A program made the position numbers and the translations under genes. The notes under the pieces are model-generated. The model saw nothing but the letters and a program-made list of their open reading frames with translations, made no database searches and was not told the origin of the DNA. DNA of 64,000 bases, taken from contig JAVJSV010000002.1 of NCBI GenBank assembly GCA_040219235.1, positions 62,001 to 126,000 on the forward strand, given 5' to 3'. Shown one piece after another: positions 16,709-41,022 of the stretch; the stretch's first letter is position 1, and each line of letters begins with the position of its first letter. The DNA is from Rhodospirillaceae bacterium. GTDB lineage: Bacteria > Pseudomonadota > Alphaproteobacteria > Rhodospirillales > Rhodospirillaceae.

Positions 16709-17059
16709 TTATTTATTGTCGCGGGTGAAGGCCGCAGACACGGGCAAATCGCCTTCACGCAGCAAAGGCGAATAAGTCAGATCAATGAAACGGTCTCGGT
16801 CCTTCTGCCATTCGACCTCTTGCTCCTCCGTCGGCATGTATTGTTCGACCATCGCATTGGTGACGCCTTTATCCTCGAGGAGGGCTTCGAGCACCTTCAT
16901 GCGGCGGCGGTTCGACCAAACTTCCGCGCCAATCGCAATCAAGCTTGTCATCATATTGTCTAAGACTGGGTTCCCGAGAAAAACAGCCCGTTCTACATCT
17001 GACGGAATGAAGTCAGACGCATAGGTCGGACGGTCGGTTTTGAGTTTCGTCGTTGCCAT
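16709..17059 (-). CDS. small helical protein of methyltransferase module A
   Basis: A 116-residue protein of a family I do not recognise. It shares clear similarity with 33356-33697 (RPTYxSDxxPxDVxxAVFLGN, EVWSNxRRxxVLEAxLEDKGVT, YMPxEE) and more distantly with 40771-41022 (SEVW...LEALK, ...FVSGVFKAL). It looks mostly alpha-helical and cytoplasmic, with no signal peptide or membrane segment. The ATG at 17057-17059 is chosen; a TTG two codons upstream is possible. Each of the three copies lies just downstream of a methyltransferase gene, suggesting a partner or regulatory subunit. The gap to the methyltransferase here is 172 bp. Confidence 0.8.
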   Translation of the reverse strand: MATTKLKTDRPTYASDFIPSDVERAVFLGNPVLDNMMTSLIAIGAEVWSNRRRMKVLEALLEDKGVTNAMVEQYMPTEEQEVEWQKDRDRFIDLTYSPLLREGDLPVSAAFTRDNK

Positions 17060-17231
17060 TTTCAATGCCTCTTCGTTATGCTGATTTGTCTCGTAAAACA
17101 GATAGGATTCTGTACAAGGTTAACCGGTTTCATAATTGACGCTGAACTCAACACGCCCAATGCCCCTCTAGAAATCGCCTTACTTCTTTTGCTGGTAGCC
17201 GCTACTGCTATGACAGAAGTCAGAAGAGCGT

Positions 17232-18434
17232 CTAAGCGGGTTTGATACCAAGGAGGTTGTTCGGCCCAAGCCACGCTGGCGGGCCGTCTTCCGTCGCTTC
17301 AAAACCGGCATCGCGCATGGCGGCAAGTAAATCCAGTCCTTCGTATTCATCCCACCAAACCTCATTGTTCCAGCGCATATCCCAAAAGTGACGATACTTT
17401 CTGTGGGCTAAAGGCGACGGTTTATTGCCACCAGTATAGTAATCAATCGGGAAAAAGACGCCGCCGGGGCGTAGAACCCGGAAGGCTTCACGGACATGCT
17501 GCTTAGAAATTTCCGCCGGCATTTCATGATGCAAAATGTACGACGTAACGATATCGAAGCTATTGTCCTCGAACTTCATATCTTCGGCCAAGCGCTGGGC
17601 AAGATTGATGTCAACACCCATATCCACAGCCCGCATGTGACCATATCGGACCATAGGCCCACCAGCATCAATACCCCACACTTCCGCGTCTTTGAATCGC
17701 TCCTTAAGTGCAACAGTCATTTGGCCGATCGTACAGCCAACATCTAACACGCGCTTGACTTTGCCGTCTTGCGGCACCGGAACCGAATTCGCGTAGACAG
17801 AATGCAGTTCATCCTGGTTATTCCGACTTGTGTAGAAATTATTTGTCCCATGATGGAACACATAACCACCCAGAGGATCACCGACGTAGCCACCTGGCAT
17901 GATATGAATTTCGTGCTTTGTGTGGTCCGGCAGATCCATATCAGGGTTCAGTTCAAGGGTGCCTGGCCCGATGTTATCCGCCGCTTCCAATTCAGCGAAA
18001 TATCTATCCGCGTCCGCGTGGAAATGATCCTGAATAGTTTTCCAGCTCAGGTACTGGTTATTGAGCCATGTATGTGCGGCAAGCCCCAGAACAGTATCAT
18101 TATCGGCGATGTCCAAGATGACATCTCTTGGTGGATCAGATTTAGGATCAACGCCCCTTTCCTCAAGACGAGCATTCATCCGCTTGGGCGCCAAGGTCCG
18201 GAAGCCCGTCTGAGTCCAAATTCTGAAACCTGTTAGGAAGTCCTGCTGACTTTCAAGATCAAGCGTCGGCAGCCGTTCGTTTCTGCCCTTTGTGCCTCGA
18301 TCTTCCACATCTCCTTTAAAACCGATCGCGGTAGAGGCACTGGTAGCGGCAACCGCTTTTTTATTTGTAAGCAAGGACATAGCCCCTGCACCTAGACCTG
18401 CGACGGCGGGAAACAATGTACGACGATCAAGCAT
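17232..18434 (-). CDS. SAM-dependent methyltransferase with Tat-like signal (module A)
   Basis: A 400-residue class I methyltransferase-like protein. The ATG at 18432-18434 follows a strong GGAGG site; an upstream frame start at 18458 would lie before that site and is rejected. The N-terminus (LDRRTLFPAVAGLGAGAMSL) has the twin arginine, hydrophobic stretch and following AVAA expected of a Tat signal peptide. A unique N-terminal domain (about 50-190) contains ELEAADNIGPG and HEIHIMPGGYVGDP, followed by the SAM-binding fold: motif I VLDVGCTIGQ (middle Gly replaced by Thr), the acidic loop WGIDAGGPM, and FDIVTSYILHHE. The protein at 33752-34888 is a close homologue without the signal. An exported SAM enzyme would be odd, because SAM is cytoplasmic. 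Substrate unknown. Confidence 0.82.
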   Translation of the reverse strand: MLDRRTLFPAVAGLGAGAMSLLTNKKAVAATSASTAIGFKGDVEDRGTKGRNERLPTLDLESQQDFLTGFRIWTQTGFRTLAPKRMNARLEERGVDPKSDPPRDVILDIADNDTVLGLAAHTWLNNQYLSWKTIQDHFHADADRYFAELEAADNIGPGTLELNPDMDLPDHTKHEIHIMPGGYVGDPLGGYVFHHGTNNFYTSRNNQDELHSVYANSVPVPQDGKVKRVLDVGCTIGQMTVALKERFKDAEVWGIDAGGPMVRYGHMRAVDMGVDINLAQRLAEDMKFEDNSFDIVTSYILHHEMPAEISKQHVREAFRVLRPGGVFFPIDYYTGGNKPSPLAHRKYRHFWDMRWNNEVWWDEYEGLDLLAAMRDAGFEATEDGPPAWLGPNNLLGIKPA

Positions 18435-18560
18435 ATTTTCCTCCACTACATGTGACAAAAATATTTAACGTCTGCAGAGGAAAATTAACCAATACAATAT
18501 CACTACTAATGCATAGGGTTATTATATTGGTGCGCCCATCACACAAAGAATAGCCTAGGT

Positions 18561-18657
18561 AGTCTAATGCAGGAGTAAGACTGCTACGCTGTTAACGGAT
18601 CAAATGATTGCGGTTGGACCACGTCGCGATAATAGAATCTATGAAATCGCCTGAGCA
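18561..18657 (-). pseudogene. remnant of a family-5 substrate-binding protein gene
   Basis: About 95 bp reading on the minus strand resembles the 3' part of the binding-protein gene at 19958-21505: SGDF...ATWSNRNH against SGDW...ATWSSRNH, with close nucleotide identity around 18599-18625. A stop and frameshifts follow, and no other parts of the gene survive. It lies immediately upstream of the module A methyltransferase, the place held by an intact binding-protein gene in module B (35094-36611). Confidence 0.7.
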
Positions 18658-18780
18658 CCTTGACGTAACAAACCGCCCCTCGCCATCGCAAAAAATGTGC
18701 GCCACATAACTTAAAGAGATTTTTTCGACCACCTACAGAATTTACGGTGACTCTGATTATACGGGAAGAATGGGTAGATC

Positions 18781-19752
18781 ATGGCTAGATTGATTTTTTC
18801 GGTCGCAGTGATGGTGGCCGTGATTGTGCTGCACTGGAACACACCGTTATCGGCGCAGGCCGTGCAATTAAGTCCGGGCGCAGTATTCCGTGATTGCGTC
18901 GACTGCCCGGAGATGGTGGTAATCCCAGCAGGGAGTGCCTTAATCGGGTCAAAGCAAGAAGAAACAACGCGCGAGGGATTCCCCGAAAATCTTTCCGGTC
19001 GGGAAAAACCTCAACATGAAGTTAGAATCACCAAACCTTTTGCTGTCAGTAAATTCGAGGTCACGAAGCGCCAATACGCTCAGTTCGTAAAAGAGACCGA
19101 CCGAGCCGTCGCAGGAGACTGCACTGTATGGGACTTCGCCACAGGCCGATTCAACAGGCAGCCCGAAAAATCTTGGCTCGATCCTGGGTTTTCTCAGGTC
19201 GACGTCGAGCCGGTGGTCTGTGTTTCGTGGGATGATTCAAAAGCCTTCGTTGCTTGGTTGAGCCGAAAAACGGATAAGGCATACCGCTTGCTTACTGAAG
19301 CGGAATGGGAATACGCAGCTCGGGCAGGAACAGTTACGACGCGGTATTGGGGCGACGACCGTGATCAAGCCTGTGCGTATGCAAATATTTTTGACCTGTT
19401 TGCAGCACAGAAATTGGATACAGCAGAAGCAAGAGCAAATCCGGAGAATCAGTTTCCATGCGTTGATGGCATTATTTTCACCGCGGAAGTAGGAAGCTTT
19501 TTACCCAATCCATTCGGGCTTCATGACATGATCGGAAACGCCTCAGAGTGGGTAGAGGATTGCTGGCATGAAAACTATGAGGGTGCGGCGTCCGACGGCT
19601 CTGCTCGCACCTCTGGCGATTGCAAACGCCGCGTCCTGCGCGGCGGCGGTTGGGATAACATACCGAGGAGCGCTCGCGCAGCCTATCGCGGCAGGACGAC
19701 CCCGGATAACAGCTACGTCATTCTGGGATTCCGCCTCGCCAGGACGCTATAG
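18781..19752 (+). CDS. secreted SUMF1/FGE-domain protein
   Basis: A 323-residue protein with a signal peptide (cleavage near LSAQA, about residue 26) and one formylglycine-generating-enzyme/sulfatase-modifying-factor domain. Motifs in order are VVIPAGSALIGS, KPFAVSKFEVTKRQYAQFV, VSWDDSKAFVAWLS, YRLLTEAEWEYAARAG, DMIGNASEWVEDCW, RVLRGGGWDN and LGFRLART. The domain also occurs in proteins that do not modify sulfatases, and no sulfatase is encoded nearby, so the function is open. Export makes a role in modifying a periplasmic or surface protein possible. It diverges from the module A methyltransferase across a 346-bp spacer holding the binding-protein remnant. Confidence 0.85.
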   Translation: MARLIFSVAVMVAVIVLHWNTPLSAQAVQLSPGAVFRDCVDCPEMVVIPAGSALIGSKQEETTREGFPENLSGREKPQHEVRITKPFAVSKFEVTKRQYAQFVKETDRAVAGDCTVWDFATGRFNRQPEKSWLDPGFSQVDVEPVVCVSWDDSKAFVAWLSRKTDKAYRLLTEAEWEYAARAGTVTTRYWGDDRDQACAYANIFDLFAAQKLDTAEARANPENQFPCVDGIIFTAEVGSFLPNPFGLHDMIGNASEWVEDCWHENYEGAASDGSARTSGDCKRRVLRGGGWDNIPRSARAAYRGRTTPDNSYVILGFRLARTL

Positions 19753-19957
19753 TTAATTCTAAAGTCTTCGCATCGTTTGACCTGAGTTAGGTTTTTCAAT
19801 CGGGCATAATTGAGAAAATCATACTCATTCTCCCACCTGGAATAGGAGCAAGAGATGAGCCTGAAGGGACTTCTTTAAAAAGGAAACCAATAGTTCAAAC
19901 TGGTTAATGATTCTGATCAACTAACTAATGCTGAGCGTTCCATGACTTCGAAAATGA

Positions 19958-21505
19958 TTAGTTGGCAAGCCAAATCTTTTCGAGAGGTATACCGTCACTT
20001 CTGAGTTCGTAGCCCATGATGTCTGAACGCATTCCGACAATATCTGAGTAGTTTACGAGAAATATAGATGGTGCCTGATCGACAGTCTCCGCCATTATGT
20101 CCATAAGCATCTTTTCTCTTTTTGAAGCATCAATCTCATACTGAACGGCTTCCAAGTCTTGCATGATTCGCTGATCACAAAAGAATGGCGTAGGTGTCCT
20201 TTTGCAGGAATGAGACTCTAATGCGGGCAATGCGTCAAAATGATTGCGGCTGGACCAAGTCGCGGTAAATGCATCGATATCATCCCAATCGCCTGAACGA
20301 ATACGGCGTGAAAATTCGGGAAACGACAGGCTGCGGAGTTCGACTTTCAACCCAACTCCCCTCAAGTCTTGCGCAACCTGTTGATACAGTAAGGAGTCTC
20401 CTGGAACTTGACCTACCGCAGCTCCAATTACTATTGAGAACCCATCCGGATAGCCACTTTCCGCCAATAATTTTCGCGCAAGCGCAACATCGTAGGAATA
20501 GGGTTCAATACTCGGATTAAATCCGAATACCCCAGGCGTAACACCTTGGCTCGCAACAGACATCTGACCCAAATGAATATACTTAACGATCGCCTCTTTG
20601 TTGACAGCGTGATTAAGCGCCTGCCTTACCCTTTTGTCCATCAGCGGAGATTCATCGGCATTTATGTTGCGTAGGCCAATACCGACAACGATAGGATTAG
20701 GTGTTGTAATTGTCTTATAGCCAGCGCTTTCTAGAATCTCAACGCCATCAGGATCTAAGTTCACTGCAATATCCACCTCTCCTGAGAGAAGAGCCTGCAT
20801 CCGCCTTGTACTATCTAGCACGACGTCCATCTGAATATTTGTGTAGTGTTGAGATCGGCGCCACGACGAATCAAAAGCATTCAGCTTGATCTGTGTTGCA
20901 TTTTCACCCCATGAACTGACAACGAAAGGCCCCGTTCCTACTGGTGAAAGTGTAAATTCGGCTTCACCTTTCTCTAGCCAAGCCGACATATCTATGATTC
21001 TCAATATGCTCATTCGTCTGGGCAGCAATGGGTCTGGCTTCGTAGTATTGATTTCGACTGTGAGTGTATCGAGAGCTCTCGCTGAACTTATTGATGATAA
21101 TTCTTGTGCCATATAAAAGCGTTCGGCATCAGGTAACTTCAGGTACTCAAAAATTTCCACTACGCTTTCGGCTGAAAATGGTTTGCCGTTATGGAACAAA
21201 ACGCCTGGCCTGAGTTTGAAAACCCACCTCGTATTTGTTTCTGCCTGCCAAGAAAGTGCTAACGCTGGTTTTAATTGGCCAGAAATAGTTATCTGCGTTA
21301 AACCGTCAAACACAGATGATTTGACGTGGCCACCCGCATATCTCTCGAAGGGATGCCCGAGAATGGGAGTGGTAGTTGAAACGGCCAGACGTAGTAGTTC
21401 AGCCTGAGCAGTGCCAGGCACCGGACATGTAAAAAAACCAGTCAGAAGCGCAAACAAGGTGCCAAGTAGTTTGCTAAGCTTTGGTCTCAATAATAAAACG
21501 TTCAT
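19958..21505 (-). CDS. orphan ABC-type substrate-binding protein, family 5
   Basis: A 515-residue periplasmic solute-binding protein of the DppA/OppA (SBP family 5) type. A signal peptide ends near GTAQA; then follow the typical VFDGLTQI...LKPALALSWQ and WVFKLRPGVLFHNGKPFSAE blocks and the long central domain with RQALNHAVNKEAIVK. The ATG at 21503-21505 is used with a GGTGA site upstream; a GTG three codons earlier is less likely. No permease or ATPase gene of an ABC transporter is present anywhere in the window, so it either works with a distant transporter or has a sensing or scavenging role beside the TonB receptors. It is homologous to 35094-36611. Confidence 0.9.
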   Translation of the reverse strand: MNVLLLRPKLSKLLGTLFALLTGFFTCPVPGTAQAELLRLAVSTTTPILGHPFERYAGGHVKSSVFDGLTQITISGQLKPALALSWQAETNTRWVFKLRPGVLFHNGKPFSAESVVEIFEYLKLPDAERFYMAQELSSISSARALDTLTVEINTTKPDPLLPRRMSILRIIDMSAWLEKGEAEFTLSPVGTGPFVVSSWGENATQIKLNAFDSSWRRSQHYTNIQMDVVLDSTRRMQALLSGEVDIAVNLDPDGVEILESAGYKTITTPNPIVVGIGLRNINADESPLMDKRVRQALNHAVNKEAIVKYIHLGQMSVASQGVTPGVFGFNPSIEPYSYDVALARKLLAESGYPDGFSIVIGAAVGQVPGDSLLYQQVAQDLRGVGLKVELRSLSFPEFSRRIRSGDWDDIDAFTATWSSRNHFDALPALESHSCKRTPTPFFCDQRIMQDLEAVQYEIDASKREKMLMDIMAETVDQAPSIFLVNYSDIVGMRSDIMGYELRSDGIPLEKIWLAN

Positions 21506-21602
21506 AAAGGTCACCCAAGTGGCTTTCTCATTTCAGTTGTCTTGCTCTCTAAAACGCAGCAATCCTTTGGTGACTATTATGTCACGGGAACAATGATCTT
21601 CT

Positions 21603-21929
21603 TCACGAGTCACCCATCTTCAAATGAGTGTAATAAGACAGCACATCATTTACTTTTACCTGCCCTTTACTTGCCATTAACGGTGACAAATCTATTTCGA
21701 GCAACCTACCGACTTTATTGGCTAAATCAGTTAAGCCGGGTTTTGTTATAGTCCTTTTGGGTTCCGGCAAAGCAACTTTAGGATAGAAATTTATTGAGTT
21801 CTTTTCTCGCGCTGGCATCGGGGAATTTCCATCAACCCGAACAATACCTTGACCCACCAACGCTTCCAGAATTTCGGTTAGTCGCAAAGGTGCCGAAGAT
21901 TCAAATAAAAAATACTGATCTTCGTTCAT
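21603..21929 (-). CDS. hypothetical protein coupled to IclR regulator
   Basis: A 108-residue protein that I do not recognise. The start ATG overlaps the IclR stop as TAATG and has a GGAGAAGG site just upstream within the IclR gene, strong signs of a real, translationally coupled gene. The sequence is soluble, with a winged-helix-like beginning (PLRLTEILEALVGQGIVRVDG) and a helical C-terminus (GLTDLANKVGRLLEIDLSPL). It could be a partner of the regulator or a small ligand-binding protein; neither is demonstrated. The binding-protein gene follows 97 bp downstream. Confidence 0.6.
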   Translation of the reverse strand: MNEDQYFLFESSAPLRLTEILEALVGQGIVRVDGNSPMPAREKNSINFYPKVALPEPKRTITKPGLTDLANKVGRLLEIDLSPLMASKGQVKVNDVLSYYTHLKMGDS

Positions 21930-22699
21930 TACCTTCTCCACTCGTCACTCGATTCTATCTTTCTGACAGAATCGAATAGTAAGGGGACTAAATCTTTGAA
22001 CATTGATGAATAAGAAACTGCTGAAGCAATGTACTTTATCGTGAGCATCGCGACCGGCTTGCCATCAGGAACGATAGCAACTGCAACTGAAGCTTCCTTT
22101 GACTCTTCTTCTTGATAGGCAGCATAGTTTTGGAAACGTGCTACATTCACCCTAGACTTAAATTCTTCTAGTTTTTCAGCAGTCATGCCGGTTTGTTCTA
22201 TTAAATTGAAATAATTCTTCCGAATTTGTTCACTTACTGCGGCCAAAAAAGCGCATCCAGACGCTGAATTGATTATCGGCTTTTTATCCCCTAAGCGTGA
22301 ACGCGATATCGCAAAAGGGTTGTCATACTCCGTAGTAATCAACGTCTCAATATCGGTGCCTTTGGGACTTGTTAGTATGATCGGCCAGATAATCTGTTGC
22401 GATAATTCTGAAATAACTGACTTTGAGCTGTTGAGCACTGCGTCTTCGACCCCATATCCTATAGATAGATTCATCACACGCCGCGTTAGTCGGTACTTCT
22501 TTTCACTCCGCTCTCTAGTTACGTACCCTTCACTCTCTAATGCGTTGAGTATGCGACATACAGCGCCTCGCGATAATGTTCCCTGCCGAACAATATCGCT
22601 CACCCTTGCCGAGTTAGAACGATTTAGGATTTCCAAAATAGACATCGTACGAACAGCAGTTAACGAGCTCCTACATGGGTCAATTTGGTATTTCTGCAT
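21929..22699 (-). CDS. IclR-family transcriptional regulator
   Basis: A 256-residue IclR-type regulator: an N-terminal winged helix-turn-helix (about 12-75, with ARVSDIVRQGTLSRGAVCRILNALESEGYV) and a C-terminal effector-binding domain (ISRSRLGDKKPIINSASGCAFLAA through SVAVAIVPDG). Such proteins control catabolic operons in response to small aromatic or aliphatic acids. Its likely targets are the adjacent binding-protein gene or the aldehyde dehydrogenase gene upstream. A small protein gene is coupled to its 3' end. Confidence 0.9.
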   Translation of the reverse strand: MQKYQIDPCRSSLTAVRTMSILEILNRSNSARVSDIVRQGTLSRGAVCRILNALESEGYVTRERSEKKYRLTRRVMNLSIGYGVEDAVLNSSKSVISELSQQIIWPIILTSPKGTDIETLITTEYDNPFAISRSRLGDKKPIINSASGCAFLAAVSEQIRKNYFNLIEQTGMTAEKLEEFKSRVNVARFQNYAAYQEEESKEASVAVAIVPDGKPVAMLTIKYIASAVSYSSMFKDLVPLLFDSVRKIESSDEWRR

Positions 22700-23054
22700 C
22701 TTTAACTCCCAATAAGCGCCCCTTTGTAAAAATGTAAAAAGAAACTCTTATGGACAATAAGAGGAGCAGCGCCTTCGTTCTGGTTTCCGACTGATTATTA
22801 GGTGTAAGTAAAATTAGAATAGCCACCCTGTATCTATACTAAGGAGCCTTATCATTGACTTTCATTACACATTAACGATGGATCGTTTGACTTATTGAAT
22901 GAACTCTCTGATGCGATTGCATAGTCCGTTATCGCCAGAACTGGCGTCAAACCGAAAGCCAATAAAAACAACTCAGTTGAAGTAATCATTATTTTTCCCC
23001 ACTGACCTTCATAGAAATTATTGCCGCCATTAAATCGTCAAAGAATAGACTGGC
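22700..23054. other. intergenic stretch with one possible tiny ORF
   Basis: AT-rich sequence between two minus-strand genes. The only feature seen is the possible 45-codon ORF at 22852-22989, listed separately. No clear hairpin terminator or repeat was found. Confidence 0.4.
22852..22989 (-). CDS. possible small secreted or membrane peptide
   Basis: A 45-codon frame starting ATG after GGGGAAAAATA encodes a peptide whose first 20 residues are hydrophobic (MITSTELFLLAFGLTPVLAI), like a signal or anchor, with a polar tail. It is too short to classify and may be chance. Confidence 0.25.
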   Translation of the reverse strand: MITSTELFLLAFGLTPVLAITDYAIASESSFNKSNDPSLMCNESQ

Positions 23055-25756: not shown

Positions 25757-25808
25757 AAAGAGTTTCATTGGCTCAACTGTTGTTGAATTTAGGGTCAAAT
25801 GCTGACGA

Positions 25809-26822: not shown

Positions 26823-26930
26823 TTAGAAAGTAGAGGTGCAAATATCAATATTATATACACCAATCGCTTTTCTGAATAAGGCGAGGTTCGGTATAAGCTA
26901 TAAGCTGAGAGGAATGATTAAACGTTATAA

Positions 26931-28442: not shown

Positions 28443-28498
28443 ACGAACTTCACATGTCTTTTAAACGAATCACTTGGCGAATGGCGCTATCTTGGTAG

Positions 28499-30542: not shown

Positions 30543-32891
30543 CTAAAAGTTGACGCGCGCTTCGATACCAAAGGTCCGCTTATCGTCATACGTAACAGCG
30601 ATTGGGGACGTAAAATTCGATGGATCCAAAATAATTCCGGTATTGACCGCAGAATCATCGTTAAACACATTGTCCACGTAAGCTGTCACCGAATACCGAT
30701 CAGACTCCACCCCAGCACGTAGGTTGGCACGATGCTTAGATCCTACATACGCTACGTTCGTCGGAGGTGAAACAGTGTATTGCTTGGACTCATATCTATA
30801 GTTGCCACGCAATGTCCAATCCCAATCTTCGGTCAAGGGCTGCACGATATCAACGGTCAGAGTTCCTTGCCAATCGCTTTGACGAGGTAACGAATAACCA
30901 CTTAGATTTAGGCCTGTATTGCCATTAGAATCAACAACGATGCGGTCCGCACATGCTGGGATATTAGCGCACTTCGCCACATCCGTGCCCCCGTTAACAA
31001 AAGCACCGTCTTTGAAACTTGGATTTGAGTAGGCCAATCCAATCCCAAATGTCACCCCATCTGCAACGATCGCAGCTACACTTGATTCGAAGCCATAGGC
31101 TTTTGCGCTTCCAGCATTCCGTATTGCTGAATTAACCCCAGCAAATCCCAGGAGCTGCAAACTCGAAAGGTCAGAATAAAACACTGCTGCATCTAGCCCC
31201 AACCGACCGTCGAGAAAATTAGTTTTGATGCCAGCTTCGTATGTCCAGTTTACTTCTGGATCATATTGTAAATCTGCTGCACCGACTACGAGGGAATTAA
31301 ACCCACCTGCTTTGTTTCCCTTCGCGGCGGATGTGTAGAGCTTGGTTTGATCAGTGACGTCGTAGTCTGCTGTAAATCTGAAGCTCCAAAAATCCCAACT
31401 GCCTTCAATCCCGTCCGGGCCATCAGCATCACTTGGAAACCTAAGAAAGCTACCGATCTGATTTTGAAATTTTTTCTGATCCGTCCATCGAGCCTCAGCC
31501 GAAACGGTGAACTGCTCAGTGACATCAAAGTCAACCAAACCAAAACCCGAAAGCTCTCTATCCTTTAGACGAGCATCTTGAAAGAAGGGTGGATTTGTAG
31601 GGTCACCCTGGCCAATGGGAAAGGGCACTATCGCAATTGCTCCTGCCGGAACGTCACCGTTATCGACGACGATAGTAAAACCTCCGAGCCGATTAAAGCG
31701 TGAATAAAATCCACCGAAAGACCAACGGACGTTTTCGTCTTCGTTGCTTGAAAGACGTAACTCTTGGGAAAAGGCATCGTCGTCTGCATCAGACAAGCCA
31801 TAAGTCGACAAGTTAATAGTAGGTGTTGGACCTCCAATCAAAGGATAGGCGCGACCGACACCCGTACCATCCCGATCTATTCTCTGCCCCTCGCTTCCGT
31901 CCATATATGACGTTACGCTGGTCAACGAGACTGGCCCCATATCGATTGAGACATTTCCTGTTGCCATGAACAATTCGCGCTTGTTTCCGAACAACTCGAA
32001 ATCAGGATCGCCCGACCTCGGCGTGCCATCTGAGTCACTAAAATCAGGCACTTTTCCGCACAGCGTAGTCTGAAATGCTCCCGCTGGTGCGCCACAGTTG
32101 CCGGTTGTAAGAACTCTGAGTGGCTGGTCATAATCATCGTTACTGTAATATAAGGTAGCCAAGATGTTCACAGACTCAGTTGGGTCAATTTCGAACGCTG
32201 CTTGAATTGCCTTTTTTTCATAGCCCTCAAAATCCACGCCGCTTATCGCATCTTCCCTTGTGCCGCCAAAGCTATCGAACCGACCAGAAAGACGAACGCC
32301 AAGCTTTCCATCAACAATCGGTCCACTTACTGACCCTTGAATGCCGTACCGATCATGATTTCCTCCCTCTAATTTGAGAGTGCCTTCAAACTCATCTGAT
32401 GGGCGTTTAGTGACATAGTTTATTACGCCAGAATAGGCATTGCGCCCATACAAGGCACTTACAGGTCCTTTTACAACTTCAACACGCTCTAGGTCGAGAA
32501 ATGTTACGTCGACCATATTCGAGTTCGCGAGATAAACTCCGTTATAGAAAACTGAGACATTGTTCTCTGCAAAGGCACCGCCAGTGAGGTTCGTTAACCC
32601 ACGAATGACCGGAAAATTCAACTGCCCAGCCCCGAATTCACTGATCGACAGGCCAGGCGTAAGGTCAATTATATCCCGTAATTCACTGACGCCTCTGTTA
32701 GCAATGTCCTGTGATGTCAGAGCCGTGATTGAGAGAGGTATGTCTTTGAGACTCTCTTCTCGTTTACGTGCTGTAACCGTGATTTCTTCTAAGGCCACCT
32801 GAGCGGCCACCTCTGGCACACACAACAAGACGAGTGATAGCGCCGTTGCGCTAAACAGTGAGGCCTTACCGCTATATAGATATTGAGACAC
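30543..32891 (-). CDS. TonB-dependent outer-membrane receptor (module B)
   Basis: A 782-residue TonB-dependent transporter. A signal peptide ends near EVAAQ (about residue 31), the TonB box lies in LEEITVTARKREE, the plug contains FPVIRGLTNLTGGAF and VEVVKGPVSALYGRNAYSGVINY, and the barrel ends in FGIEARVNF. It shares architecture and plug motifs with the module A receptor (14072-16675) but differs in length and loops, suggesting a related but different ligand. The start is GTG after GGGGGAA. A hairpin lies between it and the upstream small protein gene, so it may have its own promoter. Confidence 0.92.
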   Translation of the reverse strand: MSQYLYSGKASLFSATALSLVLLCVPEVAAQVALEEITVTARKREESLKDIPLSITALTSQDIANRGVSELRDIIDLTPGLSISEFGAGQLNFPVIRGLTNLTGGAFAENNVSVFYNGVYLANSNMVDVTFLDLERVEVVKGPVSALYGRNAYSGVINYVTKRPSDEFEGTLKLEGGNHDRYGIQGSVSGPIVDGKLGVRLSGRFDSFGGTREDAISGVDFEGYEKKAIQAAFEIDPTESVNILATLYYSNDDYDQPLRVLTTGNCGAPAGAFQTTLCGKVPDFSDSDGTPRSGDPDFELFGNKRELFMATGNVSIDMGPVSLTSVTSYMDGSEGQRIDRDGTGVGRAYPLIGGPTPTINLSTYGLSDADDDAFSQELRLSSNEDENVRWSFGGFYSRFNRLGGFTIVVDNGDVPAGAIAIVPFPIGQGDPTNPPFFQDARLKDRELSGFGLVDFDVTEQFTVSAEARWTDQKKFQNQIGSFLRFPSDADGPDGIEGSWDFWSFRFTADYDVTDQTKLYTSAAKGNKAGGFNSLVVGAADLQYDPEVNWTYEAGIKTNFLDGRLGLDAAVFYSDLSSLQLLGFAGVNSAIRNAGSAKAYGFESSVAAIVADGVTFGIGLAYSNPSFKDGAFVNGGTDVAKCANIPACADRIVVDSNGNTGLNLSGYSLPRQSDWQGTLTVDIVQPLTEDWDWTLRGNYRYESKQYTVSPPTNVAYVGSKHRANLRAGVESDRYSVTAYVDNVFNDDSAVNTGIILDPSNFTSPIAVTYDDKRTFGIEARVNF

Positions 32892-33355: not shown

Positions 33356-33697
33356 CTATTTTTCGAACTTACGGTCTGTAGCCATAGTTTTCCCACCCGT
33401 ATTATTCAAATCTTGGAAAACACGGTTGATAAAGGCATCGCGCTGCTTCTGCCATTTCTCATTCTTTTCTTCAGAGGGCATGTAGGTCTCAATCATATCT
33501 TCTGTTACCCCCTTGTCCTCTAGAACGGCCTCCAGGACATTGATACGGCGCTTATTGCTCCACACCTCTGTAGCCAAAGCAATCAAAGTAGTAACGACAT
33601 TATCGAGTACCACATTCCCAAGAAAAACGGCCTCGTTGACGTCAGCTGGGAAATAATCCGACGTATACGTCGGGCGGTCATATTTTTTCTTGCTCAT
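33356..33697 (-). CDS. small helical protein of methyltransferase module B
   Basis: A 113-residue homologue of 16709-17059, with the same blocks: DRPTYTSDYFPADV, AVFLGNVVLDN, EVWSNKRRINVLEAVLEDKG and YMPSEEK. Mostly helical and soluble; no known family recognised. It starts ATG with an AAAGGTG site, 54 bp after the module B methyltransferase. The recurrent pairing suggests an obligate partner of the methyltransferase. Confidence 0.82.
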   Translation of the reverse strand: MSKKKYDRPTYTSDYFPADVNEAVFLGNVVLDNVVTTLIALATEVWSNKRRINVLEAVLEDKGVTEDMIETYMPSEEKNEKWQKQRDAFINRVFQDLNNTGGKTMATDRKFEK

Positions 33698-33751
33698 TGC
33701 ACACCTTTATTGAGTTATATCTTGTTGCTAGGTTATTCAGGCGAACTGGCT

Positions 33752-34888
33752 TTATGCCGCTTTCACACCTAGTAAATTACCACCTGGCATACCGGCAATG
33801 CGTGCGGGGCCATCTTGAATTTCAAAGCCTGCATCTCGCATTGCGCCAGTGTAGTCCATATCAATATAGTCAAGTGCCCACGCTTCATGGTTCCAGCGCG
33901 TGTGCCACCACAGCTGGACTTTCATTCCAGCTGATAATTTAGGAGCTGGTGTACTCGTATTGATGTCGTTGGGGTAATAGATACCGCCCGGTCGCAATAC
34001 TCTGTAGGCTTCCTTAAGGATCGCGCGCGTGCCTTCTTCAGCTGCTTCATGATGCAAAATATATGATGTAACGATGTCGAAGTAACCGTCCGGAAATTTA
34101 GTGTCTTCTGCGGGCCTCTGCCTGAAATTCACTTCAATGCCAAGGTCCACGGCACGTTTGTGAGCGTAGCGCACCATTGGTCCACCGACATCGACGCCCC
34201 AAACCTCGGCGTCAGGAAAACGTTCTTTCAAAGCGACCGCATGCTGACCAATCGTGCAGCCGAGATCAAGAATTCGCCGCACTTTACCATCTTCAGGCAC
34301 AGGCACCTGCTTAGCGTATTTCTCATGAACCGCATCTTGATAGTTAGTGCCTCGATAAAAATTATTTGATCCATAGTGGAAAATATAGCCGCCAAATGGA
34401 TCGCCCACGTAGCCACCAGGCATTATATGGACTTCATGCTTACAATAGTCGGGGATATCCAAGTCTGGGTTGAGTTCTAATTTGCCAGGACCGATATTGT
34501 CAGCCGCCTCCAACTCGTCAAAATACGTGTCTGCATTATTGTGGCACTCATCGTAAAAGTTCTGCCATGTCATTTTATGGCAACTTAACCATGTGCGTGC
34601 ACTCATGCCCACTATCGGATCACCGTCCACCAATTCAGCGACTTCCTTAAATGACAGATCTTCTTCTGAATCTATACCTTTCTCCTTCAGAATTTCATCA
34701 ACGCGGACATTCGCAACAGGAAAAGTTTCCCGTGCTGTCCACGTGCGGAAGCCAGTCAAGAAGTCGTCACGGCTTTCCAAATCAAGTTCGGGCAATCGTC
34801 TATGACGGCCAATGGCACCTCTGGACTGAAAGTAGTTACCGCGTGATTTTTTAGGTGCAACGCCATCGTTTTTGACTGATGATTCCAT
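33752..34888 (-). CDS. SAM-dependent methyltransferase (module B)
   Basis: A 378-residue close homologue of the module A enzyme, sharing LDLESRDDFLTGFRTWT, ELEAADNIGPG, HEVHIMPGGYVGDP, motif I ILDLGCTIGQ and FDIVTSYILHHE, but with no signal peptide at its N-terminus. The first glycine-rich motif has Thr where most class I enzymes have the middle Gly. The N-terminal domain of about 190 residues is characteristic of this family and may bind the substrate. A clear AGGAGAG site precedes the ATG. It lies between an orphan binding-protein gene and the small protein gene. Methyl acceptor unknown. Confidence 0.85.
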   Translation of the reverse strand: MESSVKNDGVAPKKSRGNYFQSRGAIGRHRRLPELDLESRDDFLTGFRTWTARETFPVANVRVDEILKEKGIDSEEDLSFKEVAELVDGDPIVGMSARTWLSCHKMTWQNFYDECHNNADTYFDELEAADNIGPGKLELNPDLDIPDYCKHEVHIMPGGYVGDPFGGYIFHYGSNNFYRGTNYQDAVHEKYAKQVPVPEDGKVRRILDLGCTIGQHAVALKERFPDAEVWGVDVGGPMVRYAHKRAVDLGIEVNFRQRPAEDTKFPDGYFDIVTSYILHHEAAEEGTRAILKEAYRVLRPGGIYYPNDINTSTPAPKLSAGMKVQLWWHTRWNHEAWALDYIDMDYTGAMRDAGFEIQDGPARIAGMPGGNLLGVKAA

Positions 34889-35093
34889 TTCTACATTCTC
34901 TCCTATAAACTTTTAACGCTAGCCCCAATTGGCGACGAAAATTCCGTCTTTTAGCAAACTTACTTCGCTAATTATTTCCGACACCGTGAGGTTTAAACTC
35001 GCCGAAACTTGCCTGTATCTTTTTGCCCGCACTACACTAGCCAAAGCCTCTTGAGCAGCGCTCCCCAAAGCGATGGCACTACCTGCAACCCCA

Positions 35094-36611
35094 TTAATTC
35101 AACTCCACATTCATACGATGGAAATAAATTTGATCTGTAGTAGCGGCAAAACTTTTTACAGTTGGCGCAACTGCGAACACGCTTGAATATTGGACCAGCA
35201 GTATTGTAGGGGCGAGCTCATGCATTTCCTGCATAATAGATTCCAGCGACTCTCGGCGCTGGTTCTCATCGACCAGCCGCCCGCTATCAATTATTCTCTT
35301 TGTTAATTCTGGGTCGCAAAACCACGGCATTGGATTCAGACATGAGGCGTTTTCAATTGTTCGACTGACATCCCCCAGGTAGTAATTGGACAAACCTGTG
35401 GAGAACGCATCGATATCGCCCCAATCTCCAGATGCTTGGCGCCGCATAAGATCTGACATTATAATTGGGCGCAGTTCCACATTGACGCCCACCGCCGCCA
35501 AGTCCTGAGACATAACTTGGTATACTAAGCTGTCTCCAGGCACTTGGCCCGGGGCGACGGCAATCTTAAGGTCAAATCCTTGCGGGTACCCTGCGTCGGC
35601 CATTAAGGCACGCGCTCTAATCGGATCATACGAATACGGGTCAACATCCACCAGATGCCCAATCAGCCCCGCCGTGGCAATCTGCTCCGCAACTCTCAGT
35701 TTCCCACCCAACAGGTTATTTGAAATACTTTTCTTATCTATAGCGTAGTTCAACGCATGACGAACCCGCTGGTCCTTTAAAGCAGGGTTTGAGCCGTCCG
35801 CTACGCGCAAAGCCACCGCCATATTAATGGGCTCTGGCTCCACAATGACTCGAAAGCCGTCCGCCTCTAAAACTTCAATCGCGTCCGGGTCTATACCTGC
35901 TGCTATGTCTACTGAGTCTGACAAGATCGCCTGCAGACGCGTAACAGCATCTGGAAATGTATCAATTATCACACGCTCAATTTGAGCCGATCTACGCCAG
36001 GAGCTCGGAACCGCTATTAGATCGACGGAACGACCACTCTTGCGCCAGCCCTCAACTTGGAACGACCCTGTGCCGACCGGTGACATTGCAAACTCAAGGC
36101 GAGAGACATTATCCAGAGCTTTGCTAGGAATTATCTTCAAGCGCGCCAGCTTTCGCATCAACAGACCATCGGGCTCGCTGGTCTCAATTTCAACCGTCAA
36201 CGGATCGATAGCGATCACTTTGTCAATCGTGCCCGCCTCTCTTTTGACCCCAACCGTCGCGTCATCGGTATTTGCAATCAACAATAAGCTGTAGACAACG
36301 TCATCTGCGTCAAATGTGGAATTATCACTAAAAACCACCCCTTCTCTTAACTTGATCCGCCAGCGTGTGTCACTTAAAGGCATCCAATCTGTCGCCAGTG
36401 CTGGCTCCAGGGCACCATTCCGCCCAATGGAGGTCAACCCGTCAAATATGGACGGTATGATGCTATTGGCAGCATCAAACATTAAGGGATCAGCGAAGTT
36501 CCTTGGTGCAACGGCAGATGCAACACGAACTGTAGGCACTTGAGCCATAACCGAAGGTACGCTCAAGACAACAAATACAAGAGCAAGAAACAAGGTGCGG
36601 ATATGGTTCAT
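35094..36611 (-). CDS. orphan ABC-type substrate-binding protein, family 5 (module B)
   Basis: A 505-residue periplasmic binding protein of SBP family 5. A signal peptide ends at VMAQ (about residue 24), then IFDGLTSIG...LEPALATDW and WRIKLREGVVFSDNSTFDADDV, and RHALNYAIDKKSIS in the middle. It is homologous to 19958-21505. No ABC permease or ATPase gene is nearby. It lies 205 bp upstream of the module B methyltransferase on the same strand, the order also implied by the remnant in module A. Confidence 0.9.
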   Translation of the reverse strand: MNHIRTLFLALVFVVLSVPSVMAQVPTVRVASAVAPRNFADPLMFDAANSIIPSIFDGLTSIGRNGALEPALATDWMPLSDTRWRIKLREGVVFSDNSTFDADDVVYSLLLIANTDDATVGVKREAGTIDKVIAIDPLTVEIETSEPDGLLMRKLARLKIIPSKALDNVSRLEFAMSPVGTGSFQVEGWRKSGRSVDLIAVPSSWRRSAQIERVIIDTFPDAVTRLQAILSDSVDIAAGIDPDAIEVLEADGFRVIVEPEPINMAVALRVADGSNPALKDQRVRHALNYAIDKKSISNNLLGGKLRVAEQIATAGLIGHLVDVDPYSYDPIRARALMADAGYPQGFDLKIAVAPGQVPGDSLVYQVMSQDLAAVGVNVELRPIIMSDLMRRQASGDWGDIDAFSTGLSNYYLGDVSRTIENASCLNPMPWFCDPELTKRIIDSGRLVDENQRRESLESIMQEMHELAPTILLVQYSSVFAVAPTVKSFAATTDQIYFHRMNVELN

Positions 36612-36818
36612 TTCATCCTTGAGGCAGATAGTGAGAATTCGTCAACAGACCGCCTCATAATTGTGGTTATATTGTAAAGACCATCATCAATAAGGTGTAC
36701 TCAAAACTGGGCCTTGGGGTCGCCAATGTCTAATATAGATTTTGCTTGGTATTATAGCTTTTCTCTATACAGACTTTGACGCCCGCACGGCTACGACAAC
36801 AGTAGCCGGAGCAACCTT

Positions 36819-37592
36819 CTATAACGCCCTGTTCTGCCCGCCATCCACCTCAATTATTGAGCCTTGGCAGTAACCCGATGCTGGCGAAAGAAGGAAAGCG
36901 ACCACTTTGCTATGCTCTTCTGGGGTGCCTAGCCTTGCAATACCTAGCCGTTCCGTGGCGCGCTTTATCCCGGCTTCTTCAGTAATACCGTCTGCATCCG
37001 CCCTATCTCTTATTGTCTGCAGAGTGGAATCCGCCGCGATGAGCCCAGGGCTAACGCCATTCACTCTCACGCCCTCCTTGATGCCAATTTGGGCAAGAGA
37101 CTTCGTGATACTAAATAGTGCCGCGTTAAAAGATCCGCCAATTATTGCGGCAGGAAAAGCCAAGCGTCCTGCGACACCTAAAACATTGACTATCGTACCT
37201 TTGCTTTTCACCAACTCTGGCCAGCACGCTCTAGAGCACCTAACGGTCGCCATATATTTGAGTGCAAACGCGTCTTCCCAGGCGCTATCAGGCAAATCTA
37301 CAAAGGACCCTCTTTCAGAATGGCCGGCATTGTTTACCAGTCCATCAATGCGGCCAAAACGGTCGAGTGCAGCCGCTACGACCGCTTTAACCTTATCACC
37401 GTCCCGCAAATCTGCTGTTACCGCCAAATAGTTTTCAGGATCTGTTGCAGCCAGCTCCTCCAATTTTTCAGTGGACCTAGCAGTAAGCACTACCCGAGCA
37501 CCCTCGCTTCGTAGATACGTTGCGATGTCCCGCCCCAGCCCCTGGCTTGCGCCAGTAACAATAATAACCCGACCGTCTAATTGCAAATCCAT
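36819..37592 (-). CDS. SDR-fold protein lacking the catalytic YxxxK, copy 1
   Basis: A 257-residue short-chain dehydrogenase/reductase. The NAD(P) motif TGASQGLG (14-21), NNAG and the RVNGVSPGLI segment are intact. In place of the YxxxK active site the sequence reads GGSFN before AALFSITKSL, so Tyr and Lys are both missing. Other SDR-like proteins with such substitutions exist, but classical hydride-transfer chemistry is doubtful. It is the downstream copy of a tandem duplication with 37890-38663. Confidence 0.85.
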   Translation of the reverse strand: MDLQLDGRVIIVTGASQGLGRDIATYLRSEGARVVLTARSTEKLEELAATDPENYLAVTADLRDGDKVKAVVAAALDRFGRIDGLVNNAGHSERGSFVDLPDSAWEDAFALKYMATVRCSRACWPELVKSKGTIVNVLGVAGRLAFPAAIIGGSFNAALFSITKSLAQIGIKEGVRVNGVSPGLIAADSTLQTIRDRADADGITEEAGIKRATERLGIARLGTPEEHSKVVAFLLSPASGYCQGSIIEVDGGQNRAL

Positions 37593-37889
37593 CGCCTAGA
37601 ATCTCTCCATCATTGAACCAGCCGACAAGTAAACCCTATCGGTCTTTTGGATCTCTTACCTGTTGTACTTTTAAGCATTGAGCACGCAGTTTTCATCTGC
37701 GCTCCAGCCCCACACCAGCGACTGACTATATTGGCAATGCTGGAGTTCTCTACGATAGTTTGTCGTCAATCTTCGACAGTCGAACTTTGTGCAGCTCGCA
37801 AATTTAGTGCTGCTCGACAACAAATTAGTGTTGCCAAGCAAAATAGTATGGGTCTTCACACTTCCATATAGTGCCGCTGAAAAGGCCTG

Positions 37890-38663
37890 CTATAGCGCCC
37901 TATTCTGCCCGCCATCGACCTCAACGATAGCTCCTTGGCAATAGCCCGATGATGGCGAAAGAAGGAAAGCGACCACTTTGCTGAACTCCTCTGGAGTCCC
38001 TAGCCGTGCAATACCCAGCCGTTCCGTGGCGCGTTTCAAAGCGGCGTCTTCAGTAATACCATCTTTACTCGCGTACTTCTTTAAATCTCCTAAGGTTGAC
38101 TCTGCCGCAATAAGGCCTGGGCTTGCGCCGTTCACTCTAACGCCCTCCTTGATGCCAATTTGGCCAAGAGATTTCGTGACACTAAACAGGGCAGCGTTAA
38201 AAGACCCGCCGATTATAGCGGCAGGAAAAGCCAAGCGTCCTGCAACACCTAGAACATTGACTATCGCACCATTGTTTTTGACCAACTCTGGCCAGCACGC
38301 CCGGGAGAACCTGACGGTCGCCATATATTTGAGTGTAAACGCATCTTCCCAAGCGCTATCAGGCAAGTCTGCGAAAGCCCCTCTTTGCCAGTTTCCGGCG
38401 TTGTTTACCAATCCATCTATGCGGCCAAAACGGTCTATTGCCGCTTTTACGACTGCATTGATTTTATCGCCATCACGTAAATCTGCAGGAACTGCCAAAT
38501 AGTTTTCAGGGTCTGTTGCGGCCAGTTCCTCCAATTTTTCAGTGGACCTAGCAGTTATTACTACTCGGGCCCCCTCACTCCGCAAATACATTGCGATGTT
38601 CCGTCCTAGCCCCTGGCTTGAGCCAGTTACGATCACAACCCGGCCATCTAACTGTAAATCCAT
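37890..38663 (-). CDS. SDR-fold protein lacking the catalytic YxxxK, copy 2
   Basis: A 257-residue tandem paralogue of 36819-37592, with TGSSQGLG, NNAG and RVNGASPGLI intact and the same GGSFN in place of YxxxK. The identical loss in both copies means it came before the duplication and is probably functional, for instance as a different enzyme activity or a binding protein. An AAAGGT site precedes its ATG. It heads the run of minus-strand genes that continues through the binding protein and module B. Confidence 0.85.
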   Translation of the reverse strand: MDLQLDGRVVIVTGSSQGLGRNIAMYLRSEGARVVITARSTEKLEELAATDPENYLAVPADLRDGDKINAVVKAAIDRFGRIDGLVNNAGNWQRGAFADLPDSAWEDAFTLKYMATVRFSRACWPELVKNNGAIVNVLGVAGRLAFPAAIIGGSFNAALFSVTKSLGQIGIKEGVRVNGASPGLIAAESTLGDLKKYASKDGITEDAALKRATERLGIARLGTPEEFSKVVAFLLSPSSGYCQGAIVEVDGGQNRAL

Positions 38664-39020
38664 ACCTTTATGTTCCCCTCAATATAGATCTGGCAGACAA
38701 GCAAACCGTCGTGGTCTTTGAATCGCCATCCTCTTGAACGAAAGCAATGAATACGTAGTGATTATTTGCGCTCAGGCTCGACAGTTAAGGCCGACTATAT
38801 TGGCTACGAGCGAATTTTCTTCGGTAGTTTGTCACCAGAATTCGACAGCCGATTTTTGCGCGACTGCCACATTGAACGCCTGGCGACAACAGACTACCGA
38901 TGTCGAAACGGACTAAGGATCACGAAGAAGTACCAACGATAAAAGCGCTTTGCGATGTCATTTTCGCGATCTGGAAATGCGGCCCCTATACTCATTGTTT
39001 AATTTATCGGGAGACTTGAA

Positions 39021-39662
39021 ATGAATACAATATATGGATTTGCAATGTCACCCTACACATCAAGAGTGATATTGGCTTGCCGGGCTGGCGATATCCCTTA
39101 CGAGCTCACACCTCCACCAGGGGGATTGAAGTCTGACGAGTTTCTACCCATGAGTCCCTTTGGCAAAATCCCTGTTTACAAGGACGAAGAAGTAACTCTC
39201 TGTGAATCAGTTGTTATTTTAGACTACTTAGACGAACGATATGACGTTACCGCAAGCGCTAAGAGCTCAGCAGCGACAAGAGCAAAAAGCCAACTTTACG
39301 TAGCTTATGCCGACTTATACTTGCAGCCAGCGATCAGCGCTCTTTTTCGGCTTTGGGTAGGTGGCGACCGGAGCAAAGAAACTGCATCGGAGTTGAGCAA
39401 GGATGTCATTAAATCCCTAAAAGTATTCGACGAAGACGAGCACTTTACTGATCGGAGCCTTGAGGTTCTAAGCAAAGCCGACTTTTGTGTTGCTCCTGCG
39501 CTGACATTCATGGAGCAGTTATATCAACGCTTTGAACTACCTAATCCATTGCCAGAATTTACAAGAGTTGCTCAGTACTGGGAGAGGTTATCATCGCACC
39601 CAATAGTCGGCGGGCATCTTGAAGTCGTAAACGAACTGCTAACCAAACGTTTAGATGGATAG
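39021..39662 (+). CDS. glutathione S-transferase family protein
   Basis: A 213-residue GST. MSPYTSRVILACRAGDIPYEL forms the first strand and helix of the thioredoxin fold, with the cis-Pro loop GKIPVYKDEE and the CESVVILDYLDE glutathione site; the second half is helical. It is unrelated in detail to the GST at 28499. It starts ATG after GGGAGAC and is the first gene of the plus-strand set with the module C methyltransferase (26 bp downstream), suggesting a joint transcript. Confidence 0.87.
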   Translation: MNTIYGFAMSPYTSRVILACRAGDIPYELTPPPGGLKSDEFLPMSPFGKIPVYKDEEVTLCESVVILDYLDERYDVTASAKSSAATRAKSQLYVAYADLYLQPAISALFRLWVGGDRSKETASELSKDVIKSLKVFDEDEHFTDRSLEVLSKADFCVAPALTFMEQLYQRFELPNPLPEFTRVAQYWERLSSHPIVGGHLEVVNELLTKRLDG

Positions 39663-39688
39663 AGCTTGGCCACATTTAGGAGATACTT

Positions 39689-40735
39689 ATGTCATTAGAT
39701 ATTTTGCAACGTGGGCGGGCTAAGCTAAGTTTTATTTGTTCAGTAGGCATAGAACGAGCACGCACACGCTCAGCCGTTTACGGCGAGGTGAAAGAGGCTG
39801 TTGATAACGGTGAAAGTCTACCCGAGGACCTGGATGAGCGAGCGGCAAAAATTGAAGGCCTGCTGAGAAATTCTGACAACTACGCCAACTACTTAGCCGT
39901 TCATAAATGGCACCTTCGCAACACAACTCAAGCTGCTTTTGATGCCTTTGAGGAAAACAACTCCGCTCTTATCGAAGAACTTGATAAAGGTCTTGATGGA
40001 GACACGGTGTTAACCGTCGACGAGAATCTGGTACATCCGGAGTATTGGAAGCACGATTTTCACGCCACCACTGGCGGCTATGATGGACATGAATATATGG
40101 GATTTATTCATGGTGAACTCATTCACAAGTGGATTGTGGATGCAGCATATGGCGGGGCCATGTTCGCGCAACGTTTCGATGCAACCGGAGAGACCCCAAA
40201 AAGGGAGTACCGCAGAATTCTGGATATGGGATGCGGCACAGGCTACTTCACGCTTGCTCTGTCACAAAGGTTCCCTGACGCCGAAGTACATGGGTTGGAT
40301 TGCTCAAGACGAATGCTGGAGTATGCCTGCAGGGTGGGGAACAGAGAAGGGCAGGCCTGGCAGCTGCATCATGGCTTGAATGAGAAGTCCGGCTTTCCAG
40401 ATGGACACTTTGACCTCGTAACCTCTTACATACTTCTGCATGAACTTCCAGTTGAGGCGATGAACGCAACATTCAGGGAAGTATTCAGAATTCTAGAACC
40501 AGGTGGCGACTTTATGATGTCAGACGCAACGCGGTACGAAGCGATGGACCCCATCGCTGTTTGGCAGCAGGACACTAACGCCGTTCGAGAGATCGAACCG
40601 TACTGGCGCGAGACCGCATCTTTGGACTTTGCCGAAGTGGCATCTGCCGCAGGATTCGAAAACGTCGAAAGCTATGGTACTGGGCCGGGTAAATACCCCT
40701 GGATTGTGCGCGGAACCAAGCCCGCTGACGCATAA
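39689..40735 (+). CDS. SAM-dependent methyltransferase (module C)
   Basis: A 348-residue methyltransferase, more distant from modules A and B but with the same layout: an N-terminal helical domain, a KHDFHATTGGYDG block matching HEIHIMPGGYVGDP, a classical motif I ILDMGCGTGYFT (here with the normal Gly), the acidic HGLDCS loop and FDLVTSYILLHE. No signal peptide is present. A GGAGATACTT site precedes the ATG. It is followed 35 bp later by the third small helical protein gene, but no TonB receptor or binding protein is adjacent. Confidence 0.85.
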   Translation: MSLDILQRGRAKLSFICSVGIERARTRSAVYGEVKEAVDNGESLPEDLDERAAKIEGLLRNSDNYANYLAVHKWHLRNTTQAAFDAFEENNSALIEELDKGLDGDTVLTVDENLVHPEYWKHDFHATTGGYDGHEYMGFIHGELIHKWIVDAAYGGAMFAQRFDATGETPKREYRRILDMGCGTGYFTLALSQRFPDAEVHGLDCSRRMLEYACRVGNREGQAWQLHHGLNEKSGFPDGHFDLVTSYILLHELPVEAMNATFREVFRILEPGGDFMMSDATRYEAMDPIAVWQQDTNAVREIEPYWRETASLDFAEVASAAGFENVESYGTGPGKYPWIVRGTKPADA

Positions 40736-40770
40736 GTATTGTTAGCTTAACGAGGAAGACGAGTAGAAAA

Positions 40771-41022
40771 ATGGAAAACAGCTCAGACGCATACATTCGC
40801 GACCGACTAGAGACCATTACAGAGGCATATTTTTCTCTGGCATCCGAAGTATGGGTTGTTCTGGACCGTCTCTATTGTATGGAGGAAGCTCTTAAAATAT
40901 CTGGCATCGACATTAGCAAAGATATTGAAACGCTCACTCCAGATGGGGAATACAAAGAAAAATTAGATCAAAAAAGAACAGAGTTTGTGTCAGGTGTATT
41001 TAAGGCACTCGAGAGAAATTAG
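40771..41022 (+). CDS. small helical protein of methyltransferase module C
   Basis: An 83-residue protein that aligns with the C-terminal two thirds of 16709-17059 and 33356-33697: ITEAYFSLASEVW, a basic helix, MEEALKISGIDISKDIE, TPDGEYKEKLDQKRTEFVSGVFKAL. It lacks their N-terminal RPTYxSD segment. Predicted helical and soluble. Its position just after a methyltransferase for the third time supports the pairing. Confidence 0.75.
   Translation: MENSSDAYIRDRLETITEAYFSLASEVWVVLDRLYCMEEALKISGIDISKDIETLTPDGEYKEKLDQKRTEFVSGVFKALERN

Follow-up and report, generated by a model that had tools for sequence, protein, structure and literature searches.

A methyltransferase gene and a small helical-protein gene form a recurrent pair multiplied in a Rhodospirillaceae lineage

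Introduction

The closest described relatives of the enzymes reported here are class I S-adenosylmethionine (SAM)-dependent methyltransferases (Pfam Methyltransf_25/11), such as RebM, the phosphoethanolamine methyltransferases, and CysG(N-16). Proteins of the Trm112 type are small obligate activators of methyltransferases. We analyzed a 64,000-nucleotide (nt) stretch of contig JAVJSV010000002.1 (positions 62,001 to 126,000; referred to as the window) from the genome of a Rhodospirillaceae bacterium (GCA_040219235.1; 3.97 Mb, 21 contigs, estimated to be 99.85% complete), in which a gene encoding a small helical protein (SP) lies downstream of each of three methyltransferase (MT) genes. The MT proteins share the catalytic domain and SAM-site motifs of class I enzymes but add approximately 200 N-terminal residues, a likely SP partner, and a branch with putative signals for twin-arginine translocation (Tat). 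Trm112-type activators are analogous only in how they work, as a small partner for methyltransferases, whereas SP is modeled as a helical hairpin, contains cysteine in only 16 of 66 sequences, and tends to adjoin its own MT. We place the pair with class I methyltransferases and not with import systems. In our judgment, the chances are evenly balanced that MT and SP together form a two-part SAM methyltransferase in which SP is a dedicated subunit or chaperone. The MT family is large, is likely to have a dedicated partner, and has so far been left without a name.

Results and Discussion

Expansion and distribution of the MT-SP pair

The window holds pairs A (MTa and SPa), B (MTb and SPb), and C (MTc and SPc), the six genes lying where a sequence-only reading of this DNA had placed them:

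17232..18434, minus strand: MTa, with a class I SAM-methyltransferase domain (Pfam Methyltransf_25, 5.5e-20), a family-specific N-terminal domain, and a Tat-like signal
18345..18434, minus strand: Tat-like signal of MTa, from MLDRRTLF... to A-V-A-A, with a guessed point of cleavage
16709..17059, minus strand: SPa, small helical protein of 116 amino acids (aa), 173 nt downstream of MTa
33752..34888, minus strand: MTb, with the domains of MTa (Pfam Methyltransf_25, 2.1e-22), without a Tat-like signal though inside the Tat branch
33356..33697, minus strand: SPb, small helical protein of 113 aa, 55 nt downstream of MTb
39689..40735, plus strand: MTc, divergent family member without a Tat-like signal (Pfam Methyltransf_25, 2e-22)
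40771..41022, plus strand: SPc, 83 aa, 36 nt downstream of MTc (E 1.9e-6 to SPb within the window)

MTa and MTb are 55% identical, and MTc is 31 to 32% identical to either. The three SPs belong to one family, as had been supposed, with 60% identity between SPa and SPb and 33% between SPb and SPc (E 8e-10). None of the three reaches a Pfam or NCBIfam cutoff; should SP be the partner of MT, that partner would fit no Pfam family in its window copies.

The three-copy module described by the sequence-only reading is real, but its count was too low: these copies make up only a minor share of the family, which numbers 44 MT and 27 SP genes genome-wide. Searches of the whole genome returned 28 matches to SPb at E values up to 1 and 46 matches to MTb at E values up to 1e-3, the last two at 1e-5 and 1e-4, and the family counts come from an iterated profile over the 39 regions around these matches. 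Together, the genes take up 60.8 kb, approximately 1.5% of the genome length. If the proposed reading is true, that share belongs to a single enzyme family that has no name and is likely to have a dedicated partner. Two tandem arrays of four and three MTs (C16:368071-373226 and C16:229407-233055) have no SP alongside.

The MT-SP pair is widespread but patchy. All seven genomes of the genus, the present one included, have an equally large family, with at least 32 scored candidates each. Among other genera of the same bacterial family, 7 of 30 genomes have from 18 to at least 32 matches and the remaining 23 have none at E 1e-20; among other families of the order, 1 of 24 genomes has one match, of borderline strength (3e-21), and the other 23 have none. 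Matches were therefore present in 15 of the 61 genomes of this sample, in which counts of 32 are lower bounds. In a class-wide sample of 385 genomes, including the present one, MT (E 1e-40) was found in 25, SP (E 1e-6) in 24, and both in 23 (Fisher test, 1e-33; 2e-32 without the present genome), with MT alone in G119 and G283 and SP alone in G430. In a phylum-wide sample of 398 genomes, which overlaps the class sample in some genomes, MT and SP occur in the same four genomes (three without the present one; Fisher test, 1e-7), and all four SP matches outside the present genome lie just downstream of an MT. Most of the best-matching loci from named genomes (the best 80 of 257 stretches) belong to Rhodospirillaceae or other alphaproteobacterial metagenome-assembled genomes (MAGs). 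DUF1153, the SciP family, was detected in 14 of 41 genomes sampled from the class and, of 14 controls, in Caulobacter only; both observations suggest that the class is Alphaproteobacteria. In one lineage the pair has reached dozens of copies; elsewhere in the class, and in Gammaproteobacteria, its occurrence is patchy and often in low numbers.

Linkage and co-variation of MT and SP

Within the present genome, 22 of the 27 SP genes have an MT gene no more than 400 nt away on the same strand, compared to approximately 0.7 expected by rotating positions, and two of the other five lie at contig ends. At the start of contig C21, an SP stub (C21:3-101) precedes the MT at C21:177, a 23rd MT with an SP or stub beside it. 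Elsewhere, in 20 diverse regions selected for their MTs, 15 of 23 MTs have an SP. Across 79 loci of named genomes, also chosen by MT from the best 80 of 257 stretches, all 57 SPs stand beside an MT and 58 of 148 MTs stand beside an SP, counts that are biased by the choice. Six plasmid records taken from eight with an MT all show MT and SP matches in adjoining or overlapping open reading frames (ORFs). We also assembled an SP-seeded set of 20 regions around SP matches from the class sample with no MT listed alongside (the best four MTs were scored per genome), a set that leans to lone SPs, and even there 14 of 21 SPs have an MT within 500 nt.

These counts, with co-occurrence across genomes, bear out the linkage that the sequence-only reading had drawn from three loci; SPs are not mostly found without an MT neighbor, which would have spoken against it, although lone SPs do exist. 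An obligate two-gene module, with SP always beside MT, was rejected on the 22 of 27 and 14 of 21 SPs in the two sets above, together with the four of four in the phylum sample: adjacency is usual, not universal. Among the lone SPs of the SP-seeded set, one lies in a run of glutathione S-transferase (GST), SP, major facilitator superfamily (MFS), and TonB receptor genes (L209), and two (L197:4011-4571 and L205:3779-4384) have a long lysine-rich N-terminal tail and a GMC oxidoreductase gene alongside.

The two proteins also vary together. In a mirror-tree test of 21 pairs from the present genome, MT and SP distances are correlated with a Spearman coefficient of 0.63, compared to 0.38 for the largest of 5,000 permutations (p 2e-4), and the correlation over 187 pairs of the most distant MTs is 0.48. 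No MT-SP gene fusion was found in four ORF sets (44, 150, 30, and 9 MT matches and 27, 57, 26, and 9 SP matches; the last two sets overlap). If the proposed reading is true, the paralogous pairs form a set in which the influence of a small partner on a methyltransferase can be tested.

Features of the two proteins

Judging from its sequence, MT is best read as a SAM-dependent methyltransferase of class I that carries an additional domain at its N terminus. The Methyltransf_25 domain is above the Pfam cutoff in all three window MTs, and no NCBIfam cutoff is reached among the best 25 of the 46 to 64 models listed per MT. Of the SAM-site motifs, a glycine-rich loop and an acidic residue after strand 2, G210 is kept in 40, G214 in 41, and D233 in 43 of the 44 MTs of the genome (MTb numbering). 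Invariant in all 44 are P146, H154, D271, H280, E281, G301, G302, E335, and G354, with H154 in the N-terminal part and H280-E281 and E335 in the methyltransferase part. The AF2 model of MTb is of high confidence (pLDDT 90.6). Foldseek matches to it reach a TM score of 0.45 by query length among the 50 listed, with root mean square deviations (rmsd) of 14 to 21 Å for those longer than 350 columns, and most of the N-terminal extension of approximately 200 residues falls outside all PDB sequence stretches listed, which start at profile position 162 or later. Given these low-scoring matches and late starts, we could trace the N-terminal helical part to no known parent. The second Foldseek match of MTb is DsyB (PDB 7wdq), a DMSHB methyltransferase; its overall architecture differs (TM 0.45, rmsd 16 Å over 389 columns, 18% identity), and it was rejected as a model for that of MT.

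The AF2 model of SPb is a helical hairpin, with helices at residues 29 to 62 and 76 to 98, of modest confidence (pLDDT 74.3). A fold search with SPb gave no match better than E 6, and comparison of SP to PDB sequences gave four weak matches, the best at E 0.005 to a uteroglobin fusion, with no single stretch passing for the best three. SPs are mostly acidic, with a median net charge of -5 and a range of -12 to 7. Conserved residues (E44, R51, E56, G63, E70, P74, and R86) lie mainly in the helices, whereas the C-terminal tail is variable and is nearly missing in SPc.

A Tat-like branch of the MT family

MTa starts with a Tat-like signal that is absent from MTb, a point that the sequence-only reading had missed. 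We examined 188 distinct MTs of at least 330 aa from the present genome and the 79 loci using a twin-arginine pattern that also allowed K. Profile scores split these MTs sharply into groups of 136 and 52. A twin arginine followed by an uncharged stretch, with A-x-A not required, occurs in 113 of the first group and in 1 of the second (Fisher test, 1e-26), and in all 113 the pair is RR, although K was permitted. Some of the 23 first-group MTs without a signal have seemingly miscalled ORF starts, and others begin directly with the mature domain. In the tree of the present genome, the branch forms a single clade (support 100/99) made up of 13 Tat-labeled MTs and the signal-less MTb. The full rule of twin arginine, uncharged stretch, and A-x-A holds for 12 of these 14; one more has RR without A-x-A in the searched place, and MTb has none. 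The genome also encodes TatC (C16:429044-429703).

This branch is probably exported through Tat, to go by its signals. Signal-less MTs pair with SPs as well, which rules out that SP serves Tat-type MTs alone. At seven gammaproteobacterial MAG loci (L109, L111, L116, L118, L123, L137, and L155), a Tat-type MT and a signal-less MT stand back to back, and each has an SP of its own.

SAM is not expected outside the cytoplasm. Either SAM would be carried out bound, or the fold would have another use, or the signal would act otherwise; if the branch is exported, part of the MT family seems to act where its usual cofactor is not expected. It is conceivable, though less likely than not, that enzymes of this branch, with their SAM-methyltransferase fold, are exported with bound SAM or a SAM-like cofactor, perhaps together with SP, and act outside the cytoplasm, whereas sister copies with a partner of this type stay within it. 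The branch would offer a direct test of whether SAM enzymes travel folded through Tat. Tat substrates exported as heterodimers have been described (PMC10924467), and the likeness to MT and SP would be that one partner bears the signal and might bring the other along. They differ from the present case in that SP also pairs with signal-less MTs and that Tat export is here a prediction.

Proposed function and alternatives

We propose that SP, as a mostly acidic helical hairpin, would bind MT as a dedicated subunit or folding partner, and that the copies probably differ in the small organic molecules that they would methylate. One MT branch would probably leave the cytoplasm through Tat, and the pairs may have a catabolic role in changing, often catabolic-looking neighborhoods. 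Catabolic-type neighbors occur in several loci (FAD oxidoreductases, hydantoinase A/B, HMGL-like, short-chain dehydrogenase/reductase [SDR], and nitrilase-like genes). On pJE1 of Sphingomonas sp. JE1, the pair is annotated as a methyltransferase and a hypothetical protein and shares one run with genes for two FAD oxidoreductases and a zinc-binding dehydrogenase and with hydantoinase A/B genes; the gene order upstream of MT on pTomTYG65b resembles that of pJE1. Among the matches listed, a literature search returned no description of the MT-SP pair, pJE1, such an expansion, or Tat-exported SAM methyltransferases.

Several observations weigh against this proposal. An intact SP stands beside only 22 of the 44 MTs of the genome, counting one MT that shares an SP. 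In the SP-seeded set, 7 of 21 SPs, among them a 138-nt stub and an SP at a contig edge, lack an MT within 500 nt, which speaks against a strict pair. The co-variation of MT and SP fits joint duplication and proves no contact. The Tat branch is awkward for ordinary methylation because of the expected confinement of SAM to the cytoplasm. No characterized substrate of any family member was found in the literature searched. The neighbor counts over 25 loci (20 from 14 class genomes and five from sphingomonad plasmids), with FAD_binding_4 oxidoreductases at 7, TonB receptors at 5, DUF1838 at 4, MFS_2 at 4, and hydantoinase B-like genes at 3, are raw counts without a genome background, and related loci are not independent.

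The alternative that survives best is that the fold has been reused, with SAM or a relative bound as a fixed cofactor for another reaction or for ligand binding only. Such reuse would suit the Tat-type branch, as SAM is not expected in the periplasm, and it could account for the invariant H154, H280-E281, and E335. However, G210, G214, and D233 are kept in both branches, as ordinary SAM turnover predicts, and we regard reuse of the fold as fairly unlikely.

The sequence-only reading had proposed import and capture, in which a receptor, a periplasmic binding protein, and MT with SP act jointly on an imported ligand. The neighbors concerned are as follows:

14072..16675, minus strand: TonB-dependent receptor (Pfam, 2.4e-30), downstream neighbor of pair A
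30543..32891, minus strand: TonB-dependent receptor (Pfam, 2.1e-29), downstream neighbor of pair B
35094..36611, minus strand: SBP-5 gene (Pfam, 1.1e-61), upstream neighbor of MTb
19958..21514, minus strand: full-length SBP-5 gene of 518 aa (Pfam, 6.9e-68), near pair A
18781-19752, opposite strand: FGE-like gene between MTa and the SBP-5 gene at 19958-21514

Both receptors and the SBP-5 gene ahead of MTb are in place as described. What had been taken for an SBP-5 remnant at pair A is the intact gene at 19958-21514, and a six-frame phmmer search with both SBP-5 proteins found only these two in the window (E 1e-3).

Pairs A and B, each with a receptor and a nearby SBP-5 gene, are what import and capture would predict, as are the Tat-like signal on MTa, the receptor in the same gene run as the pair on pJE1 and pTomTYG65b, and the lone SP in the run at L209. 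The genome as a whole has 46 TonB receptors. We rotated positions in 12 neighbor tests in one set and six more in another. TonB receptors lie within 5 kb of 3 of 25 SP loci, compared to 2.6 expected (p 0.5; three receptors on small contigs left out), and within 3.5 kb of 4 of 39 module loci, compared to 3.4 expected (with the lengths of three small contigs guessed), and a family-wide link to these receptors was rejected. For lone MTs, 6 of 16 have a receptor within 8 kb, compared to 2.6 expected (p 0.025, one of the 12 tests). SBP-5 genes are mildly enriched, being found within 5 kb of 7 of 25 SP loci compared to 2.7 expected (p 0.01, one of the 12 tests and six more), and are not enriched at lone-MT loci (1 of 16 within 5 kb, compared to 1.75 expected), so the link of SBP-5 to SP loci is weak. 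The remaining neighborhoods differ widely by locus, with abhydrolases, FAD oxidoreductases, Rieske oxygenases, MFS, nitrilase-like, and FGE-like genes among them. A joint import and capture system is in our view unlikely.

The nature of SP itself allows two further readings. SP could be a small regulator of the adjacent operon, with a distant likeness to SciP (DUF1153), instead of a binding partner of MT. DUF1153 is the most frequent Pfam match of SPs (15 of 66 at E values up to 1, the best at 1.7e-4), the spacing of W, R, G, Y, E, and W is similar in the hhalign alignment, and the two lone SPs at L197 and L205 carry long lysine-rich tails. SPb nevertheless scores 19.6 bits against a family cutoff of 23.5, the hhalign probability is 5.4% (P 0.007), and SciP/DUF1153 was rejected as the parent family; SPs also differ from it in being mostly acidic and in standing beside methyltransferases. 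DNA binding by SP in general is unlikely because of this acidity, and we consider a regulatory role quite improbable. That SP is a ribosomal peptide precursor serving as the substrate of MT is very improbable. The small gene beside a methyltransferase and the variable C-terminal tail would suit it, but it is chiefly the helices that are conserved, and SPc has almost no tail.

Additional observations

The present genome has 48 SBP-5 matches (one short and broken), compared to 19 matches to the ABC permease family BPD_transp_1; because of this difference, many SBP-5 genes seem to be orphans and perhaps represent a second large expansion. On pJE1, a HapK-like protein (PF11639; L169:9526-9846) lies beside an SDR gene adjoining the MT-SP pair, and an unnamed gene of the same length occupies that place on pTomTYG65b. 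A protein with a weak glyoxalase-fold match (5e-5; L182:9773-10660) directly follows MT-SP in L182 and L185 and adjoins the pair in L183. In the window, two tandem SDR genes (36819-37592 and 37890-38663) encode proteins that are 85% identical, which points to a fairly recent duplication. The window also encodes a DUF1838 protein with a Tat-like start (49842-50774; Pfam, 1.1e-17), and a DUF1838 cluster is also found near MT-SP pairs in 4 of 25 other loci.

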